Below the pieces are notes generated by a model that saw nothing but the letters and a program-made list of their open reading frames with translations, made no database searches and was not told where the DNA came from. Made by a program: the position numbers and the translations under genes. Of a stretch of 21,668 nt of DNA, positions 2,005-21,574 are shown one piece after another. Every line of letters begins with the position of its first letter. Positions within the stretch are counted from its first letter, which is position 1. The stretch is from positions 1 to 21,668 of the IMG/VR virus record IMGVR_UViG_3300013101_000117. One strand, written 5' to 3'. The stretch is from a virus.

Positions 2005-2013
2005 CGTCGCCCC

Positions 2014-2415: not shown

Positions 2416-2434
2416 CTGTTCCTCCGAACGAGTG

Positions 2435-2466: not shown

Positions 2467-2472
2467 ATTCGC

Positions 2473-3833: not shown

Positions 3834-3835
3834 GG

Positions 3836-4195: not shown

Positions 4196-4204
4196 GTGTG
4201 TCTC

Positions 4205-5254
4205 CTATTCCCAGACGGTGCCCTGGCGGGCATCGTCCGTCTTGTTGGAACCGCCACCTGACACGACCGTGGTCTTACCCACGAGTGCCTTGATGTACGG
4301 ACGGTCGAGAGCTTTGGTGATCTCACCGGTGATCTCTTCCTTGGTTGAAGCGTCGGTTACGGATGACATGACTGCGTCACGCACCGCTTCCTTCGCCATC
4401 TCAGCTGTGATCTCCGCACCATCAATCGCCTCGTCAACAGCCTTGCCAAGCTCTACAGCTTTGCTAGCTCCAACTAGGGACCGAACGGCATCAATCACAG
4501 CCGAGGAATCTGCTTCATCATCAAACTCAAAGATGACCCGCATCTCGCCAGCGAGTTCTACGTCGCTAGACAGCTCATCCCTGCCCTCCGCACGAAGTGC
4601 GGTAGCAAGGTGTGCAGGCACCTCATCGAGCTTGAGGGAAGCGATGACCTCTTCACGAGTCACTACATCCTCCTTGGTCTGCTCGCCACTTACATTGATC
4701 AGTTCGGTCTCCATTCCAGCTCGACCCTTTGGCGTCCAGTCCAATGACCAGAGGTCGAACTCCGTCACCCTGTCGTCCTCAGTGCTTCTGACCCCAAAGA
4801 TCGAAACACTGTTGACGATGTCGGCTCCGGACTCTGCCAGTCTCAACTGGGTTCTGAGATCCTCCGCTGTGCGCGGTACGTATCCCTTCACCAACAGCTG
4901 ACCCTTACCTTCGGAATCCGACACGTACTGGGCACCTACCCATGCCGTGACCGCATCCCGATATTCCCAGGACACCTTCTCAGGATCCTGGTGACCTTTG
5001 TAGCCTGGAGGACGCTTCGTGTTGAACTGCGCCTCCAGGTTTCTGAGAAGAGCCTCGTCGTAGACCGGACCTGCGCCCTGGTCTCCACGACTCGGCTTGA
5101 TCGACACCGTCACAAAGAACGGGTCGTCGTCTGTTTCCTTGAGCTTCTCGATGTCGAACCCAGATGCAAACGGAACTTCATGTCCGCTGGCTTCAGCTGG
5201 AGTAAGAACGGCGATCTCACCCAGCAGCTGTGAGCCCTGTTTCACGATCTTCAT
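4205..5254 (-). CDS. Capsid maturation protease with C-terminal scaffold region
   Basis: The protein is 349 aa from ATG 5254, chosen because GGAG lies 7 bases upstream. It overlaps the portal end by 38 bases. Residues about 45-185 resemble phage prohead proteases: FVTVSIKPSRG, then GYKGHQ (His88), AWVGAQYV, KGYVPR, and DIVNSVSIFG (Ser149 and Ser151), then LDWTPKGRAGM. His88 and one of the serines are candidate catalytic residues. The remaining 165 residues are acidic, Ala/Glu/Lys-rich and probably helical, as expected for a scaffold (delta-like) segment that guides procapsid assembly before being degraded. Position between portal and capsid supports this. The fold is inferred from pattern; the catalytic third residue is not assigned. 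Confidence 0.7.
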   Translation of the reverse strand: MKIVKQGSQLLGEIAVLTPAEASGHEVPFASGFDIEKLKETDDDPFFVTVSIKPSRGDQGAGPVYDEALLRNLEAQFNTKRPPGYKGHQDPEKVSWEYRDAVTAWVGAQYVSDSEGKGQLLVKGYVPRTAEDLRTQLRLAESGADIVNSVSIFGVRSTEDDRVTEFDLWSLDWTPKGRAGMETELINVSGEQTKEDVVTREEVIASLKLDEVPAHLATALRAEGRDELSSDVELAGEMRVIFEFDDEADSSAVIDAVRSLVGASKAVELGKAVDEAIDGAEITAEMAKEAVRDAVMSSVTDASTKEEITGEITKALDRPYIKALVGKTTVVSGGGSNKTDDARQGTVWE

Positions 5255-8272: not shown

Positions 8273-9137
8273 CCCTGAGCGCTCCATCGCCGTCTCGTCG
8301 AGCCTGAGCTTGGACCCGCTCATCTCCGATTGTGAGGGTGACTGTTGCGTTGTAGAACTGTTGGGCCTCACCAAGGAATCCTGCGACATTGCCCTTCCCA
8401 TCTTGGATGTACTTGATCGCCAACTCGTAGAAGAACTCGGCCCATGCCATGAACTCCGGAACCTCGATCGTGATCTGCTTGCTTGCTGTGATGTCGTTGT
8501 GCTGCTTCGTGAGCTGTCCAACGCGTGACATCAACGCGCCGATCTCTTGAGCTCGTTCCGGTGTGATCGCCTCGTCTGACCCGAGCATCTCGTCCATTGC
8601 GGCGTAGATAATCGCGATCGCTGATCGCAGATCCATCAGCTGCTCCATCTCAAAGTACTCGGAGACGCGAGGAGCCAACCGGTTGTGCTTGAGCAGAGAG
8701 AACTGCCCCGTCTTCACGGTTCCGTTGTCGAGACCGCCGCCGTGCATGATGCACCGGCCTTCACCTGGATGATCCGTCGATAGCCCAGCTGGACTCTTGC
8801 AGACCATGATGACCGGATCCTCAGCAAGTTCATCGTACGTGATCTTGCCTCTTTCAACTTGATTCTTGAGAGCCTCTGCCGTCTTACGAGCTCCGCACAC
8901 GGCGCGGCCCTTCTGCTGCTCAGCCTCCATGACGAGACTGATCCAGTCGTCATCCCACGTCTCTGAGATGACCGTGCCGTACTCCATGAGGTGACCGTAT
9001 CGACGTTTAATCTTCATGTCTGCTCTGCCACGAACATCGTCCTCTGGAGTAGTCACGACATCGGTCACCGGTGGCGACGGCAACGTGTCTGGATCCTCGA
9101 TGTCGTGCATGTCCAGGAATGTTGAGGGGGTACCCAT
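8217..9137 (-). CDS. terS: Probable terminase small subunit with Cys/His motif
   Basis: This is a 306-aa protein directly upstream of TerL. Small terminase subunits bind the packaging site on phage DNA and regulate TerL. Residues 81-140 contain CGARKTAEA, then CKSPAG (Cys113), HPGEGRCIMHGGG (His123, Cys129, His132) and a following NGT.KTG. This C-x-x-x-AG...HPG.G.C..HGG pattern is a recurrent zinc-binding-like signature in small terminases and related DNA-binding proteins of actinophages. The second half is helical. ATG 9137 lacks a ribosome site but sits 6 bases after a plausible -10 (TATGCT), suggesting a leaderless message. An in-frame TTG at 9155 is the alternative. Longer than many TerS proteins (about 150-200 aa). 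Confidence 0.7.
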   Translation of the reverse strand: MGTPSTFLDMHDIEDPDTLPSPPVTDVVTTPEDDVRGRADMKIKRRYGHLMEYGTVISETWDDDWISLVMEAEQQKGRAVCGARKTAEALKNQVERGKITYDELAEDPVIMVCKSPAGLSTDHPGEGRCIMHGGGLDNGTVKTGQFSLLKHNRLAPRVSEYFEMEQLMDLRSAIAIIYAAMDEMLGSDEAITPERAQEIGALMSRVGQLTKQHNDITASKQITIEVPEFMAWAEFFYELAIKYIQDGKGNVAGFLGEAQQFYNATVTLTIGDERVQAQARRDGDGALRDGSGVEVVGLPRTGVEES

Positions 9138-9143
9138 GATCGG

Positions 9144-9172
9144 AGCATAACCCAAACGTGATACAGCGTGAA
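9144..9172 (-). promoter_or_regulatory. Putative leaderless promoter for the late head module
   Basis: On the minus strand, TTCACG (9172-9167), a 17-base spacer and TATGCT (9149-9144) are followed 6 bases later by the TerS ATG. The same 6-base -10-to-ATG spacing occurs at four other promoters in this window, and TerS has no ribosome site. The -35 matches consensus only partly and the spacer lacks the GTGTG element of the early promoters, as might be expected for a late promoter. By eye only. Confidence 0.4.
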
Positions 9173-9271
9173 GTGGCGCACACTGGTGAATGTTGCGCTA
9201 TGATGTCGTCTTCAGGAACGAGCCGGTTCTTGACCCTCCTGTCTTGACGGCTCAGAACCTGAAACAACATG

Positions 9272-9313
9272 GAAGAAGATCCCCAGGGCACTCGCTTACT
9301 GGGGATCTTCTTC
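9272..9313 (-). terminator. Rho-independent-like terminator upstream of terminase
   Basis: A perfect 15-bp inverted repeat, gaagaagatccccag (9272-9286) and ctggggatcttcttc (9299-9313), encloses a 12-base loop. The outer stem is A-rich on one side and T-rich on the other, so it can act in both directions. It begins 9 bases past the stop of the 29-aa basic ORF and separates the accessory operon from TerS. The repeat is certain; termination is inferred. Confidence 0.65.
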
Positions 9314-9321
9314 GTCTTGGC

Positions 9322-9411
9322 TCACTTGCGTTTCTTGGCGCCTCTGCCGACTCGCCGCTTCAGCGGCATGCGGCTCCGCACCTTGGCCCTCGTGCGTTTG
9401 CTCTTCGGCAT
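9322..9411 (-). CDS. Tiny highly basic 29-aa protein
   Basis: ATG 9411 is preceded by AGGAG with suitable spacing and opens a 29-codon frame. The peptide starts MPKSKRTRAKVRSR and ends RRVGRGAKKRK. About half the residues are Lys or Arg and there are no acidic residues, so a nucleic-acid-binding or RNA-binding role is likely. An in-frame ATG pair upstream (9465) would give 47 aa, but its ribosome site is less well placed. It is flanked by hairpins, with the terminator beginning right after the stop, so it looks like a separate short cistron. No family recognised; being so small it could be a fortuitous frame. Confidence 0.5.
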   Translation of the reverse strand: MPKSKRTRAKVRSRMPLKRRVGRGAKKRK

Positions 9412-9540
9412 GTCTCTCCTATGTGCAGCCCGCACCCAGGGAGGTGCTGGAACGTCGGGCATCATATGGATGTCCTGCCTCCCTGAGCGGGGCTTCTAGG
9501 CGGGGGGTTATGTTCCCACCTATTCGGGCTGCTTGTCACC

Positions 9541-9561
9541 GACCGACCATTGTGGTCAGTC
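9541..9561 (-). terminator. Short hairpin at the WhiB stop codon
   Basis: Plus-strand gaccgacca (9541-9549) and tggtcagtc (9553-9561) form a 9-bp stem with a 3-base loop. The single plus-strand mismatch becomes a G-U pair in minus-strand RNA, so the stem is complete only in the RNA that reads the WhiB gene. It overlaps the WhiB stop. No T-run follows, so it may protect the 3' end rather than terminate. Confidence 0.4.
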
Positions 9562-9822
9562 GTCGTTCCTTTGATCTCTTCGGCTGATCCTTCTGTCGTT
9601 CGCCGTCGAGCCCCAGTAGCCAAACTCCTGGTTGTGCACCGTAGCGAACGCAGTGCACTGCTCCCTCACGGAACACTGCGCACAGATCTGCCGAGCCTTG
9701 AAGTGCTGGAGTCCTCTGGAGGTGAAGAAGAGCGCTGAGTCCGATCCCTTGCAGTTGGCATCCTTCTCCCAGTCCTCTTCGATCCAGTCGGACCAGCTCA
9801 GTTTCAATCTGTCATCCACCAC
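9556..9822 (-). CDS. WhiB-like iron-sulfur regulator
   Basis: The protein is 88 aa from GTG 9822 (a second GTG follows at 9819; no ATG is available). It shows the WhiB signature: Cys24, Cys47, Cys50 and Cys56 (C-x22-C-x2-C-x5-C) that hold a [4Fe-4S] cluster, an acidic-aromatic N-terminus (SWSDWIEEDWEKDANC), FF in the middle, then GYWGS (68-72), a variant of the G(V/I)WGG turn, and a basic tail (RRISRRDQR) for DNA contact. WhiB proteins bind the primary sigma factor and change promoter choice. Phage copies such as TM4 WhiB can repress host whiB genes and affect superinfection. It is last in the accessory operon, overlapping the membrane gene by 19 bases. The final Gly of the turn is Ser here. 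Confidence 0.9.
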   Translation of the reverse strand: MVDDRLKLSWSDWIEEDWEKDANCKGSDSALFFTSRGLQHFKARQICAQCSVREQCTAFATVHNQEFGYWGSTANDRRISRRDQRNDD

Positions 9823-9968
9823 ATATCGATGTCGTGCTCGCGAAGCGCAGCGTCCTGGAGTGCGATCATCACAGCGTCGTCTTGTCGGCTCACCGAACAG
9901 AGAAGACCACCGATGAGAATGCCGACAGTGAGTATTCCCCACCCAACGAGAAGAAGTGTCCAGCTCAT
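9804..9968 (-). CDS. Small single-helix membrane protein
   Basis: The protein is 54 aa from ATG 9968, which overlaps the upstream stop by four bases and has AAGGAG 8 bases upstream. Residues 3-23 (WTLLLVGWGILTVGILIGG) form one membrane helix, followed by a Cys and a charged 30-residue tail ending DMWWMTD. The N-terminus is short, so the tail probably lies on the cytoplasmic or the outer face depending on charge (positive residues are few). No family recognised. Its translational coupling to a zinc/HTH protein and to WhiB suggests co-regulated expression rather than a lysis role. Confidence 0.7.
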   Translation of the reverse strand: MSWTLLLVGWGILTVGILIGGLLCSVSRQDDAVMIALQDAALREHDIDMWWMTD

Positions 9969-10594
9969 TTCTGACACTCCTTGCATCGGGACTGCAACCC
10001 AGAGGTAGCAGACGTGAGCCTACTGAACGACGTGGCCAGCTTTGTCTCACCACAACCGGCGCACCGCTTCTCGGTGACGGTCGGCTCTGGGTAGTTGCGC
10101 CTCTGCCGGTACATCTCAACCTCAGCACGGGAGCAGTCAGCGCACTTCTGCGCCTTGCCGTTCACCCCGTGTCGGTCGTTGTAGAACTCCGACCACGGCT
10201 TCCACTCGTGGCACATGACGCAGCGCCGTTGATTCGGGTTGGCTACTCCAGTGGTCGACGTCGGAAGATCCTGCGCAGATACCCACCGCGCCAACAGCAG
10301 CCCGTCGTGCTCAAACAGCCATTCCTCAAACTGGGCCCGCGTGAATCCACGTTCGCTGAAACGAGACGGAATCCACCACTCACGATCCTTGACGATCTGA
10401 TCGGCCTGCGCCTTGATGAGCTCGTCACGAGTGTCTCGCGTGATGCGACTCGGAACCACACCGCAGTGCCGTGCGATCTGTCGGATCCGCTCGCGAGTGA
10501 CGCCGAGATCGTCAGCGATGGACTGAAGAGTCTCACCGCCAGAGACCCGCGATGCGATCAGCGTGTGCTTGCTCTTGTCAATCTTTGTGACCAC
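9965..10594 (-). CDS. HTH protein with two tandem zinc-finger-like motifs
   Basis: The protein is 209 aa from GTG 10594, preferred because GGGAG lies 8 bases upstream and the start touches the previous stop. An ATG at 10609 would add five residues but lacks a ribosome site. Residues 22-45 (TLQSIADDLGVTRERIRQIARHCGV) make a helix-turn-helix like sigma region 4. The C-terminal half has two Cys4 units: C125, C128, C151, C154 and C178, C181, C204, C207, both of the form C-x2-C-x(22)-C-x2-C with a shared K..SEF / K.ATSF core. Such units bind zinc in phage DNA-binding and HNH-associated proteins, but no HNH residues are seen. A DNA-binding regulator is likely. Confidence 0.75.
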   Translation of the reverse strand: MVTKIDKSKHTLIASRVSGGETLQSIADDLGVTRERIRQIARHCGVVPSRITRDTRDELIKAQADQIVKDREWWIPSRFSERGFTRAQFEEWLFEHDGLLLARWVSAQDLPTSTTGVANPNQRRCVMCHEWKPWSEFYNDRHGVNGKAQKCADCSRAEVEMYRQRRNYPEPTVTEKRCAGCGETKLATSFSRLTSATSGLQSRCKECQK

Positions 10595-10794
10595 TAGATC
10601 TTCTCCCATCCTGATACGGTTCGTGACTCAATCCACGCGTCGCCGTCCCTGTAGAACGGACTTCGCTCTCGGTCTCTGATGGCGTGCTTGAGCCCAGTGT
10701 TAGCGTGCTCACGATCTCGCTTCTCAGTATAGTGCTTCCCGCCGAAGCTATCAACTACGACCAGCAAGAACTCCAACTTCTCTACCTTGCTCAT
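10594..10794 (-). CDS. Hypothetical 66-aa protein
   Basis: ATG 10794 overlaps the upstream stop by one base (TGATG) and has GGAGG 7 bases upstream. The protein starts with a strand-like segment (LEFLLVVVDSFGGKHYT) followed by a charged, Arg-rich middle (REHANTGLKHAIRDRERSPFYRDG) and ends ESRTVSGWEKI. It looks like a small alpha/beta domain. No family recognised; the coupling at both ends supports that it is a real gene. Confidence 0.65.
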   Translation of the reverse strand: MSKVEKLEFLLVVVDSFGGKHYTEKRDREHANTGLKHAIRDRERSPFYRDGDAWIESRTVSGWEKI

Positions 10795-11030
10795 CAACGC
10801 ACCTCCGACATGGTGATGAACTTGTGGTGCAGGTCACCGATGACTCGGTCCCTGAGCTCAGCGCTCATCCCCTTCTTGTCCATCTCTTTGCCGAGGCTGG
10901 AGAAGAACGGAATCCAGATGTCCATGTAGACAGCCTGCATCTGATCGGTCCCTGACTTCGCCACAGCAATGGCGTCGGCTGTCTCGTCGTCTGGTGGCTT
11001 ACGTCGTCCTGGAGGTGGTAGTAACGACAT
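10794..11030 (-). CDS. Hypothetical 78-aa protein
   Basis: ATG 11030 lies 2 bases beyond the upstream stop. The protein has a Pro/Arg N-terminus (MSLLPPPGRRKPPDDE) and then a largely helical body with aromatic residues (MDIWIPFFSSLGKEMDKKGMSAELRDRVIGDLHHKF). No membrane segment, Cys motif or known domain is visible. It sits in the middle of the accessory operon. No function can be assigned. Confidence 0.65.
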   Translation of the reverse strand: MSLLPPPGRRKPPDDETADAIAVAKSGTDQMQAVYMDIWIPFFSSLGKEMDKKGMSAELRDRVIGDLHHKFITMSEVR

Positions 11031-11032
11031 CG

Positions 11033-11518
11033 TTACCACTGCTCCAGGATCGGATCGGGCTTGTTCGCTTTCGCGACCTGCCCAAGCGTCCAGCGGAGCG
11101 TCTCAATCTCAGCATCCCGCTTCTCAAGTGCTGTCTCCAGGCTGCGTGCTCTGTCGGCGTGCTGATCAGAAGCCATGACTGCTGACCGCTGATCTCGCAG
11201 AGACACCTCCAGCGCCTTGACGACGTCGTCGAGGTGAGCGAGCACGTAGTCGAGCGCACCTTCGTAGAAGAGCACAAGATCAGCGCGCTGGAGAGCGTGC
11301 TCTGCCTTCGGAGTCTGGTAGCTCTTCGACACGTTCTGGTTGCGGAACAGACTGGTGTGCTGCTTTGACTTTGACGTCGGCGCCCAGTATCCGAGAATCG
11401 TGCGGAACCGGTGATGGAACATCCGGTACCAGACGGACGACTTGTCGAGCATCCCCACTGCAACAGCGTGTGAGCTGTAGCGGAACGGCCAGCTTCCTGC
11501 CTTGTCTCCTGGATTCAT
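11033..11518 (-). CDS. Hypothetical 161-aa protein with C-terminal coiled coil
   Basis: ATG 11518 overlaps the upstream stop by four bases. The first 70 residues are Ser/Arg/aromatic-rich (SSVWYRMFHHRFRTILGYW). The remainder is helical, with a probable coiled coil over about residues 95-150 (LDDVVKALEVSLRDQRS, then ARSLETALEKRDAEIETLRW). The coiled coil suggests oligomerisation or a protein partner. No family recognised. Confidence 0.65.
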   Translation of the reverse strand: MNPGDKAGSWPFRYSSHAVAVGMLDKSSVWYRMFHHRFRTILGYWAPTSKSKQHTSLFRNQNVSKSYQTPKAEHALQRADLVLFYEGALDYVLAHLDDVVKALEVSLRDQRSAVMASDQHADRARSLETALEKRDAEIETLRWTLGQVAKANKPDPILEQW

Positions 11519-14059: not shown

Positions 14060-14280
14060 TGGTAGCTCCCTCTGGTGATCTCAAACGAGATGTCGTCCAG
14101 GTAGAGCTGCGTCTCAGCACCGGCCTCACGCCAGCTGAACCGAAACTCGATCGTGCCCTTAAACAAGAACGCGAAAGCGAACCCTATCCGATCGAGGATC
14201 GGGAACGTCGTGCTCATGAACGTCGTGAACCACCCAGTGCTTGGGTCGTAGTCGGAGATCAGAACCTTCAATGGGCTCAT
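14056..14280 (-). CDS. Hypothetical 74-aa protein
   Basis: ATG 14280 overlaps the upstream stop by four bases. The protein begins MSPLKVLISDYDPSTGWFTT, has an aromatic hydrophobic middle (FPILDRIGFAFAFLFKGTIEF), and ends in strands (ETQLYLDDISFEITRGS). The middle could be a short membrane-contacting segment, though charged residues within it make a buried beta core as likely. No family recognised. Confidence 0.6.
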   Translation of the reverse strand: MSPLKVLISDYDPSTGWFTTFMSTTFPILDRIGFAFAFLFKGTIEFRFSWREAGAETQLYLDDISFEITRGSYQ

Positions 14281-14591
14281 GCGCTCCACCTTCCTTCGCC
14301 GCCGAACTTGCTGGCGCGCGGCGCCGCATCAAGCGGTACGTCGTGCGGATCAAGAACGACAATCGGCGTGTCGTGTAGAAGAACCTTGTAGTCGAGCCCG
14401 TTGTGGATCCCGACACCTGCGTGTTTGCTTCCCGAACGCGGACTCAGCCCGAGCTCAATCATGCGATTGCCGTCGACTGCTTGTGACTCCCGCTTGCTGG
14501 CAATGCAGAGCGGGTAGTGCTCGTTGCCCAGCGAGAAGAGGTACTCGCCGGTGTTCACGTCTGCTGGTGTGGTGTTGATGAACTTGATCAT
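14277..14591 (-). CDS. First gene of the accessory operon, hypothetical 104 aa
   Basis: ATG 14591 is preceded by CAGGAGACC. The frame is open further upstream, but that stretch crosses a terminator hairpin and a promoter. The protein begins MIKFINTTPADVNTGEYLFS and contains CIASKRESQAVDGNRMIELG, SGSKHAGVGIHNGLDYKVLLHD and VVLDPHDVPLD. It looks like a beta-rich domain. It leads the run of overlapping genes down to WhiB. Function unknown. Confidence 0.65.
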   Translation of the reverse strand: MIKFINTTPADVNTGEYLFSLGNEHYPLCIASKRESQAVDGNRMIELGLSPRSGSKHAGVGIHNGLDYKVLLHDTPIVVLDPHDVPLDAAPRASKFGGEGRWSA

Positions 14592-14615: not shown

Positions 14616-14644
14616 ATCGTAGCACACATCTGCGCTGACGCATA
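14616..14644 (-). promoter_or_regulatory. Promoter-like element for the accessory operon
   Basis: On the minus strand, TATGCG (14644-14639), a 17-base spacer ending ATGTGTGC, and TACGAT (14621-14616) lie 25 bases upstream of the first gene. The GTGTG immediately before the -10 matches the early promoter family of this window, but the -35 is poor. It lies just past a strong hairpin, the expected place for a new transcript start. Confidence 0.45.
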
Positions 14645-14647
14645 TTG

Positions 14648-14680
14648 TGGAGGCGCCCCGTAGAGCGTGGGGCGCCTCCA
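14648..14680 (-). terminator. Strong hairpin between two operons
   Basis: A perfect 12-bp GC-rich inverted repeat, tggaggcgcccc (14648-14659) and ggggcgcctcca (14669-14680), encloses a 9-base loop. It is 27 bases past the stop of the 57-aa gene. No long T-run follows, so it may be a weak or factor-assisted terminator. It separates the OB-like/coil gene pair from the next operon. Confidence 0.6.
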
Positions 14681-14706
14681 TCGATTCCGAGGTGGATCTC
14701 CTTTCT

Positions 14707-14880
14707 CTAGCTGCCGTTCTCGTCCTCGTACGCTTCCTCCAATTCGTCGAAGGCGTGCACGAGATCTTCAAGTGCGTTGGCGGTGAGCATCATCGCGTCA
14801 CCTAGCTTGCGCAGGATCGCTGGCATGGCTCTGACCAGTCTGGTGAATTGCTCCTGCTCAGTCTCGGGTTGTGGGCTCAC
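14707..14880 (-). CDS. Acidic 57-aa microprotein
   Basis: GTG 14880 overlaps the upstream stop by four bases (GTGA) with GGAG 5 bases upstream. The 57-aa protein starts (V/M)SPQPETEQEQFTRLVRAM, continues with an amphipathic helix (AILRKLGDAMMLTANALEDL), and ends strongly acidic (FDELEEAYEDENGS). It looks like a small helical, possibly dimerising, protein. Translational coupling to the 283-aa gene suggests they work together. No family recognised; easily missed because of its size and GTG start. Confidence 0.65.
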   Translation of the reverse strand: MSPQPETEQEQFTRLVRAMPAILRKLGDAMMLTANALEDLVHAFDELEEAYEDENGS

Positions 14881-15728
14881 TGGGTCTCCTCTGTCTCTAG
14901 TTGGGTCGCCTTTGTGGGGCGCTTGAAGAATCCGAAGTGGTCGTCATCCTTGCTGCGTTCAACCGCTGCGTCGAACTGGACACGGTCGCCCTTGCTGACG
15001 TTGATCGCTGCGGGCATCGTGCCGAAGACACGGTTGCCGTTGTCGAGCTCAACGAGCATCTTGACGATGCCGACGCCGTAGTAGCTGTACGGATCGTCAA
15101 CGACCTTCGTGGAGAAGACCGTGCCGGTGATCTGGTAGCGACCCTCAGCGAGCATCGGCGCCTTGGCCAGCTCAGCTTGGCGGGCCTCCAGCTTGGCGGC
15201 GTACTCGGCCTCTTCCCGTGCGATCTTGAAGACCAGATCGATCTGCTTGTCGCTGAGACTTCCGTACTTGGTGAGGTTGCCGCTGATGCTCTCGATGATG
15301 TAGTGCTGCGTGCGGAGCGCCTCAACGAGACCCTCGACGCCAGCTGCGAACTCTTCGCCCTTGCGCTTGAGCTCGCCGCGCTTGCGGGCCTGAGTCGCCT
15401 TGCGCTTCATCATGTCGCTGCGGCTCGTGAGATCGAAGATCCCCAGGCAGGTGCCGCCGATGGCAATCGTGTCGTTGGTGATCGTGTTGTGCACGACCGC
15501 ACCGTGGAAGAAGTGAGTACCACAGGACGCACAGCCGAAGTTGTCGTGGAACAGGACGTCGTCCTCAGTGAGACCGAGCTTCGCGAGAGCAGCTTCCAAC
15601 CACTGCTGTTCGCCGCGGTACGTGGCTGCCTCGTCGTCGCTGGGGCCCTGGTAGAAGACTCCGAGTGTTTCCCACTCAGCAGGATTCAAGTTGGCCCGTC
15701 CGAACTTGGTGTGTGTTGCTGCGCTCAT
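14877..15728 (-). CDS. Cys/His-motif, coiled-coil and beta-domain protein (283 aa)
   Basis: The protein has three visible parts. Residues 60-97 contain GCASCG (Cys66, Cys69), HFFHG, VVHN and GGTCLG (Cys94), a C-x-x-C-G...vG..C pattern seen in unnamed phage and plasmid proteins. Residues about 105-200 are a Lys/Glu/Ala-rich coiled coil. Residues 205-275 are beta-rich (YQITGTVFSTKVV, MLVELDNGNRVFGTMP, KGDRVQF) and end in FGFFKRPTKA, compatible with an OB-like fold. The ATG (15728) has no ribosome site but lies 6 bases after a near-consensus -10, so the message is probably leaderless. A nucleic-acid-binding role is plausible; not assigned. Confidence 0.7.
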   Translation of the reverse strand: MSAATHTKFGRANLNPAEWETLGVFYQGPSDDEAATYRGEQQWLEAALAKLGLTEDDVLFHDNFGCASCGTHFFHGAVVHNTITNDTIAIGGTCLGIFDLTSRSDMMKRKATQARKRGELKRKGEEFAAGVEGLVEALRTQHYIIESISGNLTKYGSLSDKQIDLVFKIAREEAEYAAKLEARQAELAKAPMLAEGRYQITGTVFSTKVVDDPYSYYGVGIVKMLVELDNGNRVFGTMPAAINVSKGDRVQFDAAVERSKDDDHFGFFKRPTKATQLETEETQ

Positions 15729-16033
15729 GCTGGTAGTATACCACGTCTTGATCCAACTTGCAAACCACGTTTGCGATCAGCGGTCTGGCTCATCCTGAGC
15801 AGTGCCGTCTGCGAGACCTTGTCCAACCAGCTACTGGTGCAGCGTGCGCAGAACATCTCATACGTGAATGCGTCGTCGGTCCAGAGCGGCTCCATCAGGT
15901 TGCCGCTTGGGTAGACCGTTCGCCCACAAAGAGAGAGTGCGCTGCCCATGCGTGCGCTGCTCGTGGTGATGTGCATCTTGGTGTTGCGGCTGAAGGCGCT
16001 CGGCACCTCTGCCATGTAGAACTCTTCGTTCAT
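15725..16033 (-). CDS. Small Cys/His-motif protein
   Basis: The protein is 102 aa from ATG 16033 (four-base overlap with the previous stop). His21, Cys36 (SLCGR), Cys62 and Cys65 (CARC) form a possible zinc site, a common layout in short actinobacterial and phage proteins. The last 15 codons (RGLQVGSRRGILPA and stop) are also the promoter of the next gene, and the stop overlaps its ATG by four bases. Function unknown. Confidence 0.65.
   Translation of the reverse strand: MNEEFYMAEVPSAFSRNTKMHITTSSARMGSALSLCGRTVYPSGNLMEPLWTDDAFTYEMFCARCTSSWLDKVSQTALLRMSQTADRKRGLQVGSRRGILPA
15735..15763 (-). promoter_or_regulatory. Early-type promoter inside the 3' end of a gene
   Basis: On the minus strand, TTGCAA (15763-15758), 17 bases with AAGACGTGG next to the -10, and TATACT (15740-15735) are followed 6 bases later by ATG 15728, the predicted transcription start. 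It belongs to the repeated promoter family and lies within the upstream coding region. Confidence 0.75.
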
Positions 16034-16200
16034 GATCGTCTGTCCTTCTTCGGCTTGACGTGGAAGTGGTCGTGGCACCTCCACACGAACCAGCGTTCAC
16101 CGGTCTCGTCGAACTTCCGCGCCACGTTGCGCTGAGCCATGTGGCTTGTCTCAAACCAGACGTTGTCTGGCACCTTGCACTGCTCTGGTCGCTTGCTCAT
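16030..16200 (-). CDS. Hypothetical 56-aa protein
   Basis: ATG 16200 overlaps the upstream stop by four bases. The protein starts MSKRPEQCKVPDNVWFETSH and contains GERWFVWRCHDHFHVKPKK. A Cys near the start and the CHDHFH cluster could bind a metal. The end is basic. No family recognised; a real gene is supported by coupling on both sides. Confidence 0.65.
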   Translation of the reverse strand: MSKRPEQCKVPDNVWFETSHMAQRNVARKFDETGERWFVWRCHDHFHVKPKKDRRS

Positions 16201-16574
16201 CGCCGCCTCCCCCTCTTGAGGAAGTAGTTCATCCATTCCTGCATCACCTTGTCAGGGCGCCGTCGCCACGCCGGTGTTGGGTAGCTGGCCCATGGAGCTG
16301 AGGCAACAATGTCCTGGAACGACTCGTTGTCGAGCTCCAGATCCGGAGCTCCGTAGATCCACTTCGGTTGGCAGAGCTTCATGCCGAACGCCTCGATCTC
16401 CCACTGGATCCGTCCCTCGTCGATCATCGCCACGAGCTCAGTCACCATGCGGTCGACCTCGGGGATCACGTAGGTTGCGATCTCGTTGCGCCTGCTGAAG
16501 AGCAGACCCTTAGCTCTGATCTCGGGGTGCTGCGCAATCACATTCCACAGACGAGCTTCGTAGTCGCTCTTCAT
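16197..16574 (-). CDS. Hypothetical 125-aa protein
   Basis: ATG 16574 overlaps the upstream stop by four bases. The protein is mixed alpha/beta: KSDYEARLWNVIAQHPEIRA, then EVDRMVTELVAMIDEGRIQW, and ends with an Arg-rich tail (YFLKRGRRR). Trp and Tyr residues are frequent (KWIYGAPDLELD, APWASYPTPAWRRR). No domain recognised. Confidence 0.65.
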   Translation of the reverse strand: MKSDYEARLWNVIAQHPEIRAKGLLFSRRNEIATYVIPEVDRMVTELVAMIDEGRIQWEIEAFGMKLCQPKWIYGAPDLELDNESFQDIVASAPWASYPTPAWRRRPDKVMQEWMNYFLKRGRRR

Positions 16575-16855
16575 GACGAGCCCTCCATGTCGAACCTTCT
16601 GGCTAGCTCGTAGAACTTGGGCGCTGACTCGGCGTAGTCGAACCGGTAATTCGACACTGGGCTCATGCGAGCACCTGGGTAGAACGCACGACCGATGCGC
16701 ACGTAGCCGCCTCCTCCTGAGTCCGGATACCAGGCGAGACAGAGTGAGCTGTTCGCGAGTCTGGCGATCGCGCCGCCCGTCATCGGATCCTTGACGAACC
16801 TGATCTGGCCCTTGTTGTAGTCGGCCTCTGCCGTCCAGTCCTTGATCGTCATCAT
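16571..16855 (-). CDS. Hypothetical 94-aa protein
   Basis: ATG 16855 is adjacent to a second ATG at 16852, and the stop of the upstream gene overlaps both. The protein starts MMTIKDWTAEADYNKGQI and is aromatic-rich (CLAWYPDSGGGGYVRIGRAF) with a helical end (YAESAPKFYELARRFDMEG). The fold seems small and globular. Function unknown. Confidence 0.6.
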   Translation of the reverse strand: MMTIKDWTAEADYNKGQIRFVKDPMTGGAIARLANSSLCLAWYPDSGGGGYVRIGRAFYPGARMSPVSNYRFDYAESAPKFYELARRFDMEGSS

Positions 16856-17070
16856 CCTCTGAACCCCCTGTTCATGAAGTCTTCGTCGGCCACTGCTGCG
16901 TCGAACACCTTGGAGTCTGGAACCCCACAGGTCTCACAGTACGCGAGACGGCCTTTGGGGTAGAACCAGATCTGGCTTCCACGCTTGATCTCTCCGTCAC
17001 ACTTGTGGCATTGGCTACCGAACCGTGCCGTCATCCAGCGGGGATCCCCCGCGTAGCTGGAGCGGTTCAT
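16852..17070 (-). CDS. Zinc-finger-like 72-aa protein
   Basis: The protein is 72 aa from ATG 17070, with AGGAG 6 bases upstream and a four-base overlap with the preceding stop. Cys21 and Cys24 (CHKCDGEIKRGSQIWFYP) and Cys45 and Cys48 (YCETCG) form a CxxC-x20-CxxC site. The ARxxSxCxxCxxxIxxGxxIxxYPxG layout recurs in actinobacterial and phage zinc proteins, but I cannot name the family. An upstream in-frame extension is Arg/Pro-rich and rejected. Confidence 0.75.
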   Translation of the reverse strand: MNRSSYAGDPRWMTARFGSQCHKCDGEIKRGSQIWFYPKGRLAYCETCGVPDSKVFDAAVADEDFMNRGFRG

Positions 17071-17339
17071 GCCGTGCTCCTGTTGTGGCGGGCTCGGGCT
17101 GGATTGCCACAGTCGACGCACCAGTGGGCTCCCACGGTGGGGCGCCAGTATCCGGATCCTCCGCAGAGCTCGCACGTGATGAGCTGCTCGATCTGGCTGT
17201 ACTCCATCTGCCAGACACGGATCGCGGTGAGGCGCTTGCCGAACCCAGGCGTGAAGACGGTCTCGTCTCCGACGTGCTTCCAGAAGTACGGGTTGTCCTG
17301 GACGTCTTGCGGGACTGGGAATGTGTTGGTCGTCTTCAT
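17067..17339 (-). CDS. Zinc-ribbon-like 90-aa protein
   Basis: ATG 17339 overlaps the upstream stop by four bases. The first half carries an aromatic segment (DNPYFWKHVGDETVFTPGFG). Cys56 and Cys59 (CELCGGSGYWRP) with Cys74 and Cys77 (HWCVDCG) form a four-Cys site like a zinc ribbon or DnaJ-type knuckle. The final residues are basic. Function unknown. Confidence 0.7.
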   Translation of the reverse strand: MKTTNTFPVPQDVQDNPYFWKHVGDETVFTPGFGKRLTAIRVWQMEYSQIEQLITCELCGGSGYWRPTVGAHWCVDCGNPARARHNRSTA

Positions 17340-17596
17340 CGAACCACCTCGTCTAGGGGAGCAACGGCGTAAGACGCTGCTGCCAGTTCGTAATCCTCGC
17401 CCGCCTCTGAGATGTCGAGGCAAGCGCTGCAACCCTCGGCTGCGTTGAAGAACTTGTTGTCGTGACCACAAGGGAGGCACAGACCGAAGTAGCGTGGGGA
17501 GCGTGCCATCACATCGTGTTCGTCATCCGTGAACCGAACCTCTTCTGTACCGTCGTCGTACTCGGTGACCTGATCGTCCTGATAAACGACTCGCAT
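17336..17596 (-). CDS. Zinc-ribbon-like protein, dual possible start
   Basis: The protein is 86 aa from ATG 17596, which has AGGAG upstream. An in-frame ATG 11 codons earlier, at 17629, lies 6 bases after the -10 and would give a 97-aa form read from a leaderless message. The N-terminus is acidic (EYDDGTEEVRFTDDEHD). Cys40, Cys43, Cys56 and Cys59 (CLPCGHD...GCSACLD) form a CxxC-x12-CxxC site. Function unknown. It is the first gene of its transcript. Confidence 0.7.
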   Translation of the reverse strand: MRVVYQDDQVTEYDDGTEEVRFTDDEHDVMARSPRYFGLCLPCGHDNKFFNAAEGCSACLDISEAGEDYELAAASYAVAPLDEVVR

Positions 17597-17635
17597 GCTC
17601 GCTCCTGTGGTTGCTGGCGTCTTGCTCATGTCCTT

Positions 17636-17664
17636 ATGATACCACACCTTGATTCTAATTGCAA
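17636..17664 (-). promoter_or_regulatory. Early-type promoter
   Basis: On the minus strand, TTGCAA (17664-17659), a 17-base spacer ending AAGGTGTGG and TATCAT (17641-17636) are followed 6 bases later by ATG 17629. It is a member of the repeated family and lies between the 144-aa gene and the zinc-ribbon gene. Confidence 0.8.
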
Positions 17665-17676
17665 ACTGAGATCGGG

Positions 17677-18111
17677 CTAGTGACCCATCTGCCCTGAGGC
17701 GCTCGTGTCGTACTCGGGCTTGCCGTCCCACGGGGATGCGCTGGCGTAGCTGGTCAGTCGCACGTAGCCGTACTGGTTGACCTTGTGGCGTGAGGTGACT
17801 GGCACGAAACACGGCAGGGTCTCCTCGTCCTTGATGTGGTGATGCCACTCTCTCATGAGCTCCAGAGGCTTGAGATCCTTCGACCACTCACAGTCCACGT
17901 GCCGGTACTGGGGCTTGTCAGTCGGCACGACGCCCTTGACGTCGTAGCCGTCCTCGCTGCGGGCCGGTCGCTTCTGGAGCTTGAGCAGGGTGACGAAGTG
18001 GGCGGTGCGCTTGATGACTCGGTAGAACGTGACGTTGGTCTGGTCGTAGCCCCAGCTGCTGGAGAGAATGTCTCCTACCTGGAAGCCTGCGGTCTGTGGT
18101 GTCTGCGTCAT
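17677..18111 (-). CDS. Conserved phage protein (GDI..SSWGYDQTNV pattern)
   Basis: This is a 144-aa protein whose N-terminal part reads FQVGDILSSSWGYDQTNVTFYRVIKRT. I recognise the GDI-x-x-SSWGYDQTNV-x-FY-x-V pattern as recurring in phage and plasmid proteins of unknown function. Later segments include HVDCEWSKDL and KVNQYGYVRLTSYASA. Likely beta-rich at the start. ATG 18111 overlaps the upstream stop by four bases. Role unknown. Confidence 0.75.
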   Translation of the reverse strand: MTQTPQTAGFQVGDILSSSWGYDQTNVTFYRVIKRTAHFVTLLKLQKRPARSEDGYDVKGVVPTDKPQYRHVDCEWSKDLKPLELMREWHHHIKDEETLPCFVPVTSRHKVNQYGYVRLTSYASASPWDGKPEYDTSASGQMGH

Positions 18112-18209
18112 TTGGGAACCTCACAATCGTGGCCGAAGTACCACTCGTCGTTGTCGTCTGGGTCGGTCAGGTCGAAGACTCTGCCGCACTCTGGGCACTT
18201 GACTTTCAT
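18108..18209 (-). CDS. 33-aa zinc-knuckle microprotein
   Basis: ATG 18209 opens a 33-codon frame ending with a four-base overlap with the next gene. The peptide starts MKVKCPECGRVFDL and ends YFGHDCEVPK. Cys5, Cys8, His27 and Cys29 form a C-x2-C-x18-H-x-C zinc knuckle. The ATGA coupling to the conserved 144-aa gene and the intact metal site support it as a real gene despite its size. Function unknown. Confidence 0.65.
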   Translation of the reverse strand: MKVKCPECGRVFDLTDPDDNDEWYFGHDCEVPK

Positions 18210-18211
18210 CG

Positions 18212-18706
18212 CTACCACCCCACTGTGTTTCTGATCATGCGGGCTGTGTTGTCTGGGCACGCTGAGGTCTCAACCGTGAAGACCTTCGGGTCTCTGTCTG
18301 TGAGTCCGGTGGAGATCACGATGTCGAACTGGTCGCCGTGGAGACCGGCGTTGCGGAGGTTGTCGGTCGTGTTGGCGTCCTTGCCCCAGCGGAAGGCGAG
18401 ACGGTTTCCCGCTCGGAGGATCCGTGCGATGCTGTTGAACGTGCGGGAGTACTGCGCCGTGTGAACCATCGAGAAGGCGTAGAAGTTCTCGTACGCCTCG
18501 TAGCTGATCCGGATCTCGCGGAAGCGATCGCCACCGTCGCGCTCTGGGAAGATCTCGGACTGACGTCGTGTGGCGCCGTTGCGGTCGTCGAAGCTGGCGC
18601 GGATCTTGGATCCCTTGTCGTTCGTGTGGAAGCTGACAGACGTTGCGGTGCGCAAGGCTTGAATGTCTTCCTTGGTGATCTCTGCGGATTCTGTGATTGT
18701 GTGCAT
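18212..18706 (-). CDS. Hypothetical 164-aa protein
   Basis: ATG 18706 has GGGAG upstream and follows an early-type promoter, with a leader of about 39 bases. The protein starts MHTITESAEITKEDIQALRT, with alternating strand and helix, and contains ARILRAGNRLAFRWG and DQFDIVISTGL. There is a single Cys near the end (ACPDNTARM). No domain recognised. The stop is 2 bases from the next ATG, so the three following genes may share its message. Confidence 0.65.
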   Translation of the reverse strand: MHTITESAEITKEDIQALRTATSVSFHTNDKGSKIRASFDDRNGATRRQSEIFPERDGGDRFREIRISYEAYENFYAFSMVHTAQYSRTFNSIARILRAGNRLAFRWGKDANTTDNLRNAGLHGDQFDIVISTGLTDRDPKVFTVETSACPDNTARMIRNTVGW

Positions 18707-18751
18707 GCGGGTCTCCCGTGGTTGCTGGCCGTGGCTGCGGCTGATGACTTC

Positions 18752-18780
18752 ATTGTATCACACCTTGATGTGAATTGCAA
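18752..18780 (-). promoter_or_regulatory. Early-type promoter
   Basis: On the minus strand, TTGCAA (18780-18775), a 17-base spacer ending AAGGTGTGA and TACAAT (18757-18752). Six bases later the sequence is ATC, not ATG, in frame with the downstream ATG 18706. It is a member of the repeated family. Confidence 0.8.
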
Positions 18781-18789
18781 GTCGGTTGG

Positions 18790-19035
18790 CTACCGGCGCC
18801 TCCTCGTGATCCGGTTGCCGCTGGTGATCTGGTGCGTGGATCCGATCTCACTTAGGGTCACCTTGACGTAGCTGCCGAACAGGTCGGTGTCGACCAGACG
18901 CAGACGGGAGCCGTGGGCAATGTTGATCTGGTGTCTGGCGGTGTCAATCGCTCGCTCGATCATGCGGCGCAGGGTGGCGTTGCCGCTGGGGTTGATGTGG
19001 TCGAACGGAACCATGACGGTGTATCGGGTCTTCAT
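18790..19035 (-). CDS. Hypothetical 81-aa protein
   Basis: ATG 19035 has GGGAAGG upstream. The frame's longer upstream reading overlaps the neighbour and is not plausible. The protein begins MKTRYTVMVPFDHINPSGNA, then TLRRMIERAIDTARHQINIAHG, and ends basic (GNRITRRRR). A strand-helix-strand arrangement (LVDTDLFGSYVKVTLSE) suggests a small alpha/beta fold. Function unknown. Confidence 0.65.
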   Translation of the reverse strand: MKTRYTVMVPFDHINPSGNATLRRMIERAIDTARHQINIAHGSRLRLVDTDLFGSYVKVTLSEIGSTHQITSGNRITRRRR

Positions 19036-19040
19036 GTGAC

Positions 19041-19304
19041 TCACCTTCCCCTTGACGGGATCTTGATCGGCGTGGTCATCGGCGTGAACGTGGTGACCCA
19101 GTGGGTGCCGGTCGCGGAGAGCGCTGTCTCGTTGAACCAGGCCCTGGTCCCGAACCGCTCGTCGACCGCTCTGAAGTTGAGCGTCGTGGCCTCGCGCCGT
19201 GCGCTGACTAGATTCGTCATATCGACGTGATCGATGTGCAGGCGTGCGGTCACGACTCCCTGGACTGAAGTGACGACTGTGTGATTGTGATTGTGGCTGC
19301 TCAT
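19041..19304 (-). CDS. Hypothetical His-rich 87-aa protein
   Basis: ATG 19304 overlaps the upstream stop by four bases, with CAGGAGACC upstream. The N-terminus is His/Asn-rich (MSSHNHNHTVVTSVQG). The body appears beta-rich (TARLHIDHVDMTNLV, TGTHWVTTFTPMTTP) and ends PIKIPSRGR. The His run resembles the start of the rightward 97-aa gene at 20863 (HETHHTHT). Function unknown. Confidence 0.6.
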   Translation of the reverse strand: MSSHNHNHTVVTSVQGVVTARLHIDHVDMTNLVSARREATTLNFRAVDERFGTRAWFNETALSATGTHWVTTFTPMTTPIKIPSRGR

Positions 19305-19540
19305 GAATGTGGGTCTCCTGGGCTGGCGATATTCCAATGGCGGGTGAACTGTTCGGCGGGGACTCCCTTGAGAGCGGTGCGCGTTGCGTCGAGCACGTCG
19401 GCGCAGCGGAGCAGGTCTCGTGCGTCGTCGGAGTCGTCGGGCAGGAACAGCGCAATGCGGCGCAGCGTGTCAGAGCGCTGGCGTGCGGGGAACGTCTTGC
19501 GGAGTGTGTGGAGATCCTGGATGTTGATCTTGTGCTTCAC
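19301..19540 (-). CDS. Hypothetical 79-aa protein
   Basis: GTG 19540 overlaps the upstream stop by four bases (GTGA), with AAAGGA upstream. The protein is helical and Arg/Asp-rich: NIQDLHTLRKTFPARQRSDT, then IALFLPDDSDDARDLLRCAD. No domain recognised. It follows the leaderless 72-aa gene on the same message. Confidence 0.6.
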   Translation of the reverse strand: MKHKINIQDLHTLRKTFPARQRSDTLRRIALFLPDDSDDARDLLRCADVLDATRTALKGVPAEQFTRHWNIASPGDPHS

Positions 19541-19755
19541 CTTGCTGCGTCCTTTGCTCTCTTGGCGATGAGCTTACGCTGGAGCTCGTCGGCTGCGGCC
19601 TGGTGCGCCTTGCAGAACGATCCGTTGGGCAGAGCGTTGAGCCTGCACCATGCTGGGCGTGTGCCGAACGATTCGGTCCCTTTGGCGAGGATGCCTCTGG
19701 TGACCTTGCGCTGCACGATTGTCTGGCACTTGCCTGGGGCTGGTGTTGATTCCAT
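19537..19755 (-). CDS. Small Cys/His protein read from a leaderless message
   Basis: The protein is 72 aa from ATG 19755, which has no ribosome site and lies 6 bases after a -10. Cys10, Cys37, Cys48 and His51 (GKCQ, WCRLN, GSFCKAH) suggest a C..C..C..H zinc site. The C-terminus is a basic helix (DELQRKLIAKRAKDA). The open frame extends upstream to 20067, but that stretch contains the promoter and reads unlike a protein. First gene of the leftward operon. Confidence 0.7.
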   Translation of the reverse strand: MESTPAPGKCQTIVQRKVTRGILAKGTESFGTRPAWCRLNALPNGSFCKAHQAAADELQRKLIAKRAKDAAR

Positions 19756-19761
19756 ACCTGG

Positions 19762-19790
19762 ATGATACCACACTCTGATGCAAACCGCAA
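19762..19790 (-). promoter_or_regulatory. Early-type promoter, leftmost reader of the noncoding region
   Basis: On the minus strand, TTGCGG (19790-19785), a 17-base spacer ending AGAGTGTGG and TATCAT (19767-19762) are followed 6 bases later by ATG 19755. The -35 departs from TTGCAA at the last two bases. Confidence 0.7.
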
Positions 19791-20064
19791 GTCGAGATGT
19801 GTTGGATAGGCAAGATGTGATACATGGGGCTGGGAATCGGTTGGCGCATTCCTGAGTACTCCCCCTCCTGGCGACGCTGGTGGTGCGCAAAGACTCAAAG
19901 TCAGCGCGGTGCGCGTGCGGGACACAGGCGTGGCATTGATCAAGCTCGATGCGATGAGAACCTGCGAGAGAACGATTGAATGCGTTGCTGCTGCTGAGCT
20001 GTAGCCCGATGAGGAGGGGGCGTGTGTGCCCCATGTGTGAGCTCACGTGCCTAGCCCTACTTGA

Positions 20065-20080
20065 CATAACATTGGTTATG
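20065..20080. repeat. Inverted repeat CATAAC-ATTG-GTTATG
   Basis: Perfect 6-bp arms (20065-20070 and 20075-20080) around a 4-base centre, overlapping a TTGACA hexamer at 20061-20066. The size and layout suit a dimeric repressor operator. No convincing -10 lies at the expected distance on the plus strand. Confidence 0.45.
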
Positions 20081-20139
20081 GGCGCTTGGGCATTCGGCGT
20101 TATCCGTACAGGGCAAGGGTTTCTCCATGCCCCCCGCTT

Positions 20140-20169
20140 GCACGTGCTAGCACAGGGTACTTATCCACA
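20140..20169. promoter_or_regulatory. Palindromes next to a consensus DnaA box
   Basis: GCACGTGC (20140-20147) and GTGCTAGCAC (20144-20153) are overlapping perfect palindromes. TTATCCACA (20161-20169) matches the bacterial DnaA-box consensus exactly. A near-copy, TTATCCGTA, lies at about 20099-20107. Only one perfect box is seen, which is weak evidence for a DnaA-dependent origin. Confidence 0.4.
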
Positions 20170-20351
20170 GGCTACCCCTCCCCCTGTGTGCACCCCCCAT
20201 ACCCCCGTGGTACACTGGGGCGCTTTCCCTTGGTACGCCTGCTGTACACCCCTTCACGTCGCTCTCCTGGGCTGCTGGACCCCCGATCCCTGAGCTCACT
20301 GGGCACGTGCGTGGAGAGGAGCAGGCAGATCAACGACCATGTCTGACCCGC

Positions 20352-20390
20352 ATTGGTATGACAACCATACGACCATACGACCCTACCAAT
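20352..20390. repeat. Inverted repeat with tandem ACCATACG
   Basis: ATTGGTA (20352-20358) and TACCAAT (20384-20390) are 7-bp arms. Between them ACCATACG occurs twice in tandem (20364-20379) and the first arm is followed by TGACAACC. Function unknown; possible protein-binding site. Confidence 0.4.
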
Positions 20391-20630
20391 CCCCTCCGCA
20401 CCTCCACCCAGCACTCACCCTGGGACCATTACGCCACACCCCTTGCCCCACAAGGGCTACAGCCCGATCCCACCCCCTCACGGGACTGTTTCAGATTCCT
20501 CTGTTTCCCAGGCCCACTCTACATAACACCCCCATCTCGCACCGTTTGCACTCAAACGACCCCCTACTTTGCACGTCTATACACGCACCCCCACACACAC
20601 CCCCCTACACACACCCACCCCCTTACGTAT

Positions 20631-20643
20631 AGATATCATATCT
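20631..20643. repeat. AT-rich palindrome AGATATcATATCT
   Basis: A perfect 13-base odd palindrome, the only AT-rich patch in a C-rich kilobase, directly after ttacgtat. It could be a melting element or an operator. No nearby promoter is convincing. Confidence 0.35.
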
Positions 20644-20649
20644 TCTCAA

Positions 20650-20742
20650 TGGTCCCAACGGTCCCAAACTCGACGTTTCCCCAGCCGCACCAACGAGTTT
20701 CCCGTTCCACCAAAGCGTCCCAAAGCCGCACCACTGGGACCA
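20650..20742. repeat. Nested inverted and direct repeats
   Basis: tggtccca (20650-20657) pairs with tgggacca (20735-20742). Inside, aaactcg (20666-20672) pairs with cgagttt (20694-20700). The sequence agccgcacca occurs twice (about 20683 and 20724). These could fold into a cruciform or RNA structure just upstream of the rightward promoter. Confidence 0.4.
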
Positions 20743-20794
20743 ACTCACTCCGACCACCCCCCACCCATGCCCAGACACACCTCCACCAAACAAC

Positions 20795-20823
20795 TTGCAA
20801 TCTCCGCCAAGGTGTGATATACT
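20795..20823 (+). promoter_or_regulatory. Early-type promoter, rightward
   Basis: TTGCAA (20795-20800), a 17-base spacer ending AAGGTGTGA and TATACT (20818-20823) are followed 6 bases later by ATG 20830. It is near-consensus and the best match to the family. It shows that the same promoter type drives both directions. Confidence 0.8.
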
Positions 20824-20862
20824 CCAGTCATGGAGCAAGCAACCACCCAGGAGGCCCACACA

Positions 20863-21156
20863 ATGTCTACCCTTCACGAGACACACCACACGCACACGGT
20901 CCACTTCAACCTTGTCACACCAGCCGCCACCTCCCGCCACACCTCGACCTTCGTCACCGATGATCGCCCCAACGCCCCCGTCAAGGCAATGGACGCCTTC
21001 CGCGACTCGATCGACTCCATGGTGCTCCCCGCAGACGCAAGCATCGATGCCGTAGCTGTTGTGACACACACGATCGGCACGCTCACCACCAACGCCGTCC
21101 TGGTCAACAGCCACACGTTCTCCCAGCCCATCCGGATCCTGCTCCCCACCGTGTAG
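20863..21156 (+). CDS. Hypothetical 97-aa protein, dual possible start
   Basis: ATG 20863 has GGAGG 8 bases upstream and is preferred. In frame, 11 codons earlier, ATG 20830 sits at the predicted transcript start and would add MEQATTQEAHT. The protein begins MSTLHETHHTHTVHFNLVTP, then reads ATSRHTSTFVTDDRP and ends beta-rich (VVTHTIGTLTTNAVL, PIRILLPTV). Codons are unusually C-ending. No family recognised. Confidence 0.65.
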   Translation: MSTLHETHHTHTVHFNLVTPAATSRHTSTFVTDDRPNAPVKAMDAFRDSIDSMVLPADASIDAVAVVTHTIGTLTTNAVLVNSHTFSQPIRILLPTV

Positions 21157-21205
21157 CACACGAGCCCACACACCACACCCACACCCCACAGGAGGCACCA
21201 ACCAC

Positions 21206-21523
21206 ATGAGCACCTACGGCACCCCAGCACACGCAATCGTCGGCTACACGTACCAGGCAGACCAGTACTGCCCAGACTGCATCGCAGACCAAGTCAGAGC
21301 CGACCTCCCCGAAGAGCTCCACGTCCTCCGCTACCCAGTCGATGCGGACGGCGGCGAGTACCCCTGGGACGCTGAGTGGTTCCTCACGACCATCGCACCG
21401 CACCTCGACATCACCGACCGCTACGACGAGACCACGTTCGACAGCGACACGTTCCCCAAGGTGATCTTCTCCAGCCAAGTCGAAGACACTGAGTACTGCG
21501 GCGCCTGCCACAAGGAGCTGTAG
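21206..21523 (+). CDS. Conserved actinophage-type protein with paired CxxC motifs
   Basis: The protein is 105 aa from ATG 21206 with GGAGG upstream. It starts MSTYGTPAHAIVGYTYQADQ and has Cys22 and Cys25 (CPDC) and, near the end, Cys98 and Cys101 (CGAC). The VGYTY.AD.YCP.C pattern is common in small proteins of actinophages and is uncharacterised. The middle is acidic with LTTIAPHLDIT. The two pairs may bind one zinc in trans across the fold. Confidence 0.75.
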   Translation: MSTYGTPAHAIVGYTYQADQYCPDCIADQVRADLPEELHVLRYPVDADGGEYPWDAEWFLTTIAPHLDITDRYDETTFDSDTFPKVIFSSQVEDTEYCGACHKEL

Positions 21524-21545
21524 CCGCCAACCCACCACACCCAGT

Positions 21546-21574
21546 TTGCAACCCAACGCAGAGTGTGATACACT
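21546..21574 (+). promoter_or_regulatory. Early-type promoter, rightward
   Basis: TTGCAA (21546-21551), a 17-base spacer ending AGAGTGTGA and TACACT (21569-21574). The predicted start carries no ATG; the following ATG 21604 has AGGAG upstream and a leader of about 23 bases. Confidence 0.75.

Follow-up and report, generated by a model that had tools for sequence, protein, structure and literature searches.

The window analysed here is the entire IMG/VR contig IMGVR_UViG_3300013101_000117, 21,668 bases in length, which stems from a tailed phage and encodes capsid, portal and large terminase together with a weakly recognised small terminase, all of them leftward. Six near-identical elements in its non-structural part raise two connected questions, namely whether they form a family of promoters and what accounts for the conserved box in their spacers. 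To the first question a fairly confident answer can be given: the six elements likely represent strong promoters of the housekeeping-sigma (SigA) type in a phage whose host is probably actinobacterial, and four of them would yield leaderless transcripts. The second question is addressed by comparison with unrelated phage promoters that share the same core.

Sequence and layout of the six copies

A first-pass annotation, made from the sequence alone, had proposed a repeated early promoter family, and a letter-by-letter check found each of its six elements in place:

15735-15763, minus strand: copy 1, TTGCAAGTTGGATCAAGACGTGGTATACT, TTGCAA-N17-TATACT
17636-17664, minus strand: copy 2, TTGCAATTAGAATCAAGGTGTGGTATCAT, TTGCAA-N17-TATCAT
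18752-18780, minus strand: copy 3, TTGCAATTCACATCAAGGTGTGATACAAT, TTGCAA-N17-TACAAT
19762-19790, minus strand: copy 4, TTGCGGTTTGCATCAGAGTGTGGTATCAT, TTGCGG-N17-TATCAT; head of the leftward gene set
20795-20823, plus strand: copy 5, TTGCAATCTCCGCCAAGGTGTGATATACT, TTGCAA-N17-TATACT; head of the rightward gene set
21546-21574, plus strand: copy 6, TTGCAACCCAACGCAGAGTGTGATACACT, TTGCAA-N17-TACACT

As had been claimed, a TTG-type -35 hexamer (TTGCAA, once TTGCGG) is separated from a TANNNT -10 hexamer by exactly 17 bp in all six copies. The proposed extended -10 is likewise borne out, and with it the promoter family is well supported: TG-R precedes the -10 in 6/6 copies, in five of them as TGTG-R and in copy 1, which sits within the 3' end of the upstream gene and has the deviating spacer box CAAGACGTGG, as CGTG-G. 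An ATC in front of the box, ascribed to the four leftward copies, is present in those four only. Every copy is oriented in the same way as the gene behind it, so that 6/6 point into a gene, and all lie within 15.7-21.6 kb, ahead of small non-structural genes; it is this position that suggests early timing. A search of Rfam returned no match.

The distance of the family from background was determined with a leave-one-out position matrix, in which each copy is scored by the matrix of the other five. The phage sequence at hand is incomplete and comprises about 46 kb, namely the window and the 24 kb by which a second contig, G003 (IMGVR_UViG_3300013099_000051; 35,193 bases), extends beyond it. G003 aligns to window positions 1-11180 with 99.97% identity and, judged by this alignment, belongs to an identical or nearly identical phage. 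The copies score 21.9-39.2 bits, compared with 12.7-17.9 bits for the best among 91,244 other positions, and every copy thus exceeds the best other position. Moreover, the box CARRGTGTGR has five exact occurrences in the window, all at elements, and none in the other 24 kb of the phage. The six elements stand far above background.

A weaker seventh copy had also been suspected:

14616-14644, minus strand: TATGCGTCAGCGCAGATGTGTGCTACGAT, with the extended -10 TGTGCTACGAT only; upstream of the gene 14277-14591, which has a ribosome site

This site was rejected as a member of the family, as it lacks a -35 and the matrix of the six assigns it less than 9 bits, which is under the background.

Predicted start sites and leaderless genes

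Downstream of every -10 follow exactly six bases, the last of which is a pyrimidine, and then an A (6/6). At sigma-70 promoters, transcription starts about 7 nt past the -10. In four of the six copies (15735, 17636, 19762 and 20795) the A at this offset is at the same time the first base of the ATG of the following gene, and leaderless mRNAs translated from a 5'-terminal ATG are therefore predicted. The chance of encountering at least four ATGs among six copies at a fixed offset is ~6e-7; this coincidence had gone unreported in the first-pass annotation. The genes and starts concerned are:

14877-15728, minus strand: gene of copy 1, 283 amino acids, phrog_4750; predicted +1 at 15728, the A of the ATG; ATGA overlap with the upstream gene
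17336-17629, minus strand: gene of copy 2, 97 amino acids; predicted +1 at 17629, the A of the ATG
18212-18706, minus strand: gene of copy 3, 164 amino acids, phrog_27970; predicted +1 at A 18745 (ATC, not ATG); the start lies downstream behind GGGAG
19537-19755, minus strand: gene of copy 4, 72 amino acids; predicted +1 at 19755, the A of the ATG
20830-21156, plus strand: gene of copy 5, 108 amino acids; predicted +1 at 20830, the A of the ATG
21581, plus strand: predicted +1 A of copy 6, followed by a short leader with AGGAG and an ATG at 21604

The genes starting at 15728 and 19755 have neither an alternative ATG near the start nor an evident ribosome site. Those starting at 17629 and 20830 contain a further in-frame ATG exactly 11 codons on, behind AGGAG and AGGAGG, respectively, and hence translation could begin at the leaderless ATG as well as internally. 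As a separate observation, these two reading frames could each give rise to two protein forms. At copies 18752 and 21546, the predicted +1 does not fall on a start codon and short leaders with ribosome sites follow. Relatives suitable for footprinting were sought with three proteins, of which 17677-18111 and 19537-19755 gave none and 18212-18706 gave one with 30% identity; the closest contigs, G001 and G002, start at the terminase, and the early region lies outside them.

The elements would operate as follows. Host RNA polymerase with SigA would bind TTGCAA and the extended -10 (TGTG-R-TAYNMT), 17 bp apart, and begin transcription at the A 7 nt past the -10. At four copies the starting A would be the first base of the ATG, yielding a leaderless mRNA, and at the other two a short leader with a ribosome site would be transcribed. 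The divergent pair at 19762 (leftward) and 20795 (rightward) would open both gene sets, and the remaining copies would restart transcription at short gaps within each set, driving small non-structural genes.

Probable host

Beyond the portion shared with the window, G003 encodes large genes, an endolysin-like gene and DNA polymerase I. Among the matches listed for this polymerase, the 12 best (12/12) are all from actinobacterial phages. In addition, the gene after it starts like a RuvC-type resolvase, an annotation that recurs in several of the matching actinobacterial phages. An actinobacterial host is likely on the basis of such phage relatives. A prophage search for the host returned a single match, a 3.3-kb scaffold in a deltaproteobacterial metagenome-assembled genome, which is uninformative.

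Conservation of the spacer box

The first-pass annotation had held that the wider box is more conserved than a sigma factor needs. A scan of IMG/VR for TTGCAA-N7-CARRGTGTGRTAYNMT retrieved 28 stretches, with one exact copy apiece, from contigs of 33%-71% G+C, and the same scan without the CARR requirement retrieved at least 120. From the matches listed, to which all of the following comparisons refer, 71-72 distinct unrelated phage promoters with the same core, richer in A+T, were taken as a comparison set. In this set, A amounts to 50%, 49% and 57% at positions 15-17, ARR is found in 30%, C at position 14 in 24% and CARR in 10% (7 of 71-72), as opposed to CARR in 6/6 copies of the phage. The spacers of the six carry 11.1 bits of information, compared with 5.9 +/- 1.2 bits in random sets of six, and the resampling P of ~1e-4, which also holds when the best four-column stretch is freely chosen, is to be read with the caveat that the six copies may share ancestry and hence may not be independent.

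Some excess conservation, residing in CARR, is thus real, and to this extent the claim stands. Part of the box is ordinary: TGTGR fits the extended -10, with TGTG-R-TAY corresponding to that of actinobacterial SigA, and ARR is frequent in the unrelated promoters. The extra conservation of CARR most likely reflects a shared origin of the copies or duplication of a single promoter inside the phage, combined with a weak purine preference of RNA polymerase at these positions.

Related sites and families in other phages

A related site, TTGTGC..GAAGGTGTGATACACT, is located at 32648-32676 of G003, where TACACT is followed 7 nt on by the ATG of DNA polymerase I. In the relative G004 (70% terminase identity), TGTGCTACAGT lies seven bases ahead of the polymerase ATG. 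Both polymerases align from near their first residues, with their start codons aligned; the promoter sequences differ.

Many copies of TTGCAA/TTGCGA-N17-TAYAMT with a TGTG-type extended -10 were found in the contigs G010 (29 aligned sites), G014 (34) and G013 (16), control matches being nearly absent. The G010 and G014 families, reading TTGCRA-N17-TACAMT, show T at -1 in 83-85% and A at +1 in 69-85% of copies at the same offset as in the window. Some copies would be leaderless, with four ATG-at-+1 copies in each contig, and the spacer is almost unconserved. One G014 protein matches almost exclusively actinobacterial phages, and both contigs probably derive from such phages. The 16 copies of the G013 family possess the spacer box CRACCG and are flanked by attaccccc upstream and ATNNNNCGT right after the -10. 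All three families have the core in common with the window phage, but in none of them is CARR present throughout, and the G013 box occupies another part of the spacer with another sequence. Seven copies of TGATACAATAGC, several of them followed by a leader with AGGAGGTCAG, occur in G005, which is more distantly related to the window phage, and are taken as another phage-specific promoter family. A comparable motif family was not found in the isolated actinophages Madraxi, Trogglehumper, Orchid, Kurnik, DSL-LC01, Atuin and Ajin. Hence, repeated promoters with a host-type core constitute a recurring design, while spacer conservation is confined to some of the phages.

Alternative readings of the box

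Several points weigh against a family of host-type SigA promoters with leaderless starts. The actinobacterial host is itself deduced from phage relatives, and capsid and terminase have their closest, though distant, counterparts in Bacillus phages. In two of the four genes with an ATG at +1, the real start may be the second ATG with its good ribosome site. Finally, the spacer conservation exceeds the needs of the core, and this reading can attribute it only to shared descent or polymerase preference.

One alternative would have host RNA polymerase itself read the spacer, by the beta-prime zipper or sigma region 3 at the 'Z-element' (-17/-18 and neighbours), with CARRG as a mark of strong promoters. 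The A-richness before GTGTG in the unrelated promoters agrees with this, and a spacer element contacted by the zipper at -18/-17 has been described (PMC5101437). However, CARR occupies -22 to -19, adjoining the described contacts without overlapping them, C14 is not generally enriched, and the families of the two probable actinophage contigs make do with almost no spacer conservation. A polymerase contact is an unlikely cause of the box.

Doubtful, too, is an operator, in which a phage or host protein would bind CARRGTGTG in the spacer of all six copies and switch the set together. In its favour are the excess of CARR over unrelated promoters, the absence of CARRGTGTGR elsewhere in the phage, the use of the core without a conserved spacer by the 29- and 34-copy families, and the different box of the 16-copy family. 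On the other hand, dyad symmetry is not seen: a dyad AYCA-N5-TGRT was rejected, as beyond CA-N5-TG the next pair (13/23) is complementary in 1/6 copies. Nor did a scan of the genes in the window and in part of G003, in a still incomplete genome, reveal anything resembling a repressor. There are, moreover, just six copies, perhaps of recent common ancestry, and in this phage the promoter of DNA polymerase I reads GAAGGTGTG, in which CA is missing. A phage regulator that reads the box, as suggested earlier, is possible but doubtful, also in view of the 29- and 34-copy families, which keep the core and leave the spacer almost unconserved. Rather less probable still is a regulator of unspecified type, from the phage or the host, that co-ordinates the non-structural genes by reading CARRGTGTG in all six spacers; on this view, the core would have acquired other spacer codes in other phages, for example CRACCG in G013.

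It is very improbable that TTGCAA is read by a sigma-like protein of the phage itself, for which one gene would be the candidate:

9965-10609, minus strand: sigma-70 region 4-like helix-turn-helix protein; N-terminal Pfam Sigma70_r4 match (24.9 versus a cut-off of 24.1 bits), joined to endonuclease VII/zinc-finger-like repeats

The Pfam score surpasses the cut-off and TTGCAA differs from TTGACA, but the match spans 24 residues only and the remainder of the protein is devoid of sigma region 2. A special factor is also unnecessary, because many unrelated phages combine TTGCAA with an extended -10, as expected of a sigma promoter. Chance or non-promoter repeats are scarcely credible, having nothing in their favour beyond the derivation of promoter activity from sequence, and being opposed by the exact 17-bp spacing, the orientation, the position at gene starts, the pyrimidine-A step where transcription would begin and the matrix scores, which lie well over background.

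The divergent gap

The two leading promoters enclose a region with features of its own:

19791-20794, no strand assigned: gap of ~1 kb between the divergent promoters 19762 (minus) and 20795 (plus); the GC skew changes sign; holds TTATCCACA and TGGGACCA/TGGTCCCA repeats

The sole TTATCCACA of the window, which corresponds to the DnaA-box consensus, is located at 20161-20169, and the gap of 19.8-20.8 kb, within which the GC skew changes sign, is a possible replication origin. The TGGGACCA/TGGTCCCA repeats at 20421, 20651, 20660 and 20735 (with a variant at 20716) span 20421-20742 and cluster upstream of the promoter at 20795; they may represent an operator or iteron set.

Comparison with published systems

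Each Cluster O mycobacteriophage genome was predicted to contain eight to nine strong promoters resembling those of SigA; three of them, the divergent pair PL1 and PR2 from an intergenic region and PL2, were predicted to give leaderless mRNAs in which transcript and start codon begin at the same base (PMC4351075). Compared by description, and within the parts of that account considered here, the divergent leaderless pair and the additional promoters located among the leftward genes resemble the present arrangement. In those parts a conserved spacer box is not described, the repeats being separate 17-bp palindromes, and one quoted -35 is TGTCAA as opposed to TTGCAA here (PMC4351075), so that the window phage stands apart by its CARR box and by how nearly identical its copies are. 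By analogy with these parts of the account, the closest precedent is Cluster O with its predicted leaderless promoters of SigA, and the window phage would work alike.

The TGTGRTAYNMT of the phage set also fits the extended -10 consensus tgngnTA(c/t)aaT of actinobacterial SigA in Corynebacterium glutamicum (PMC2230225), which in the phage is accompanied by CARR and, 17 bp away, by a constant TTGCAA. In Mycobacterium smegmatis, a conserved -35 was not found in promoters, and leaderless mRNAs, normal in actinobacteria, account for ~24% of transcripts (PMC6448022). Start-associated sequences of Cluster K mycobacteriophages, a 13-bp GGGATAGGAGCCC, are likewise short phage-specific repeats at many gene starts whose function was read from position; in contrast to the window elements, which would be promoters upstream of +1, they are thought to act in translation initiation (PMC3203893).

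Implications

The strategy as such is already known in phages, and the window phage would be a fresh example of it, with the spacer box as its peculiarity. The six elements would provide a clean promoter set for an uncultivated phage group, and their +1 ATGs would mark translation starts that automated gene calling could place wrongly. A single core (TTGCAA, 17 bp, TGTGRTAYNMT) underlies large promoter families in several unrelated phages, and since the spacers vary among these families, the meaning of the spacer is accessible to experiment.

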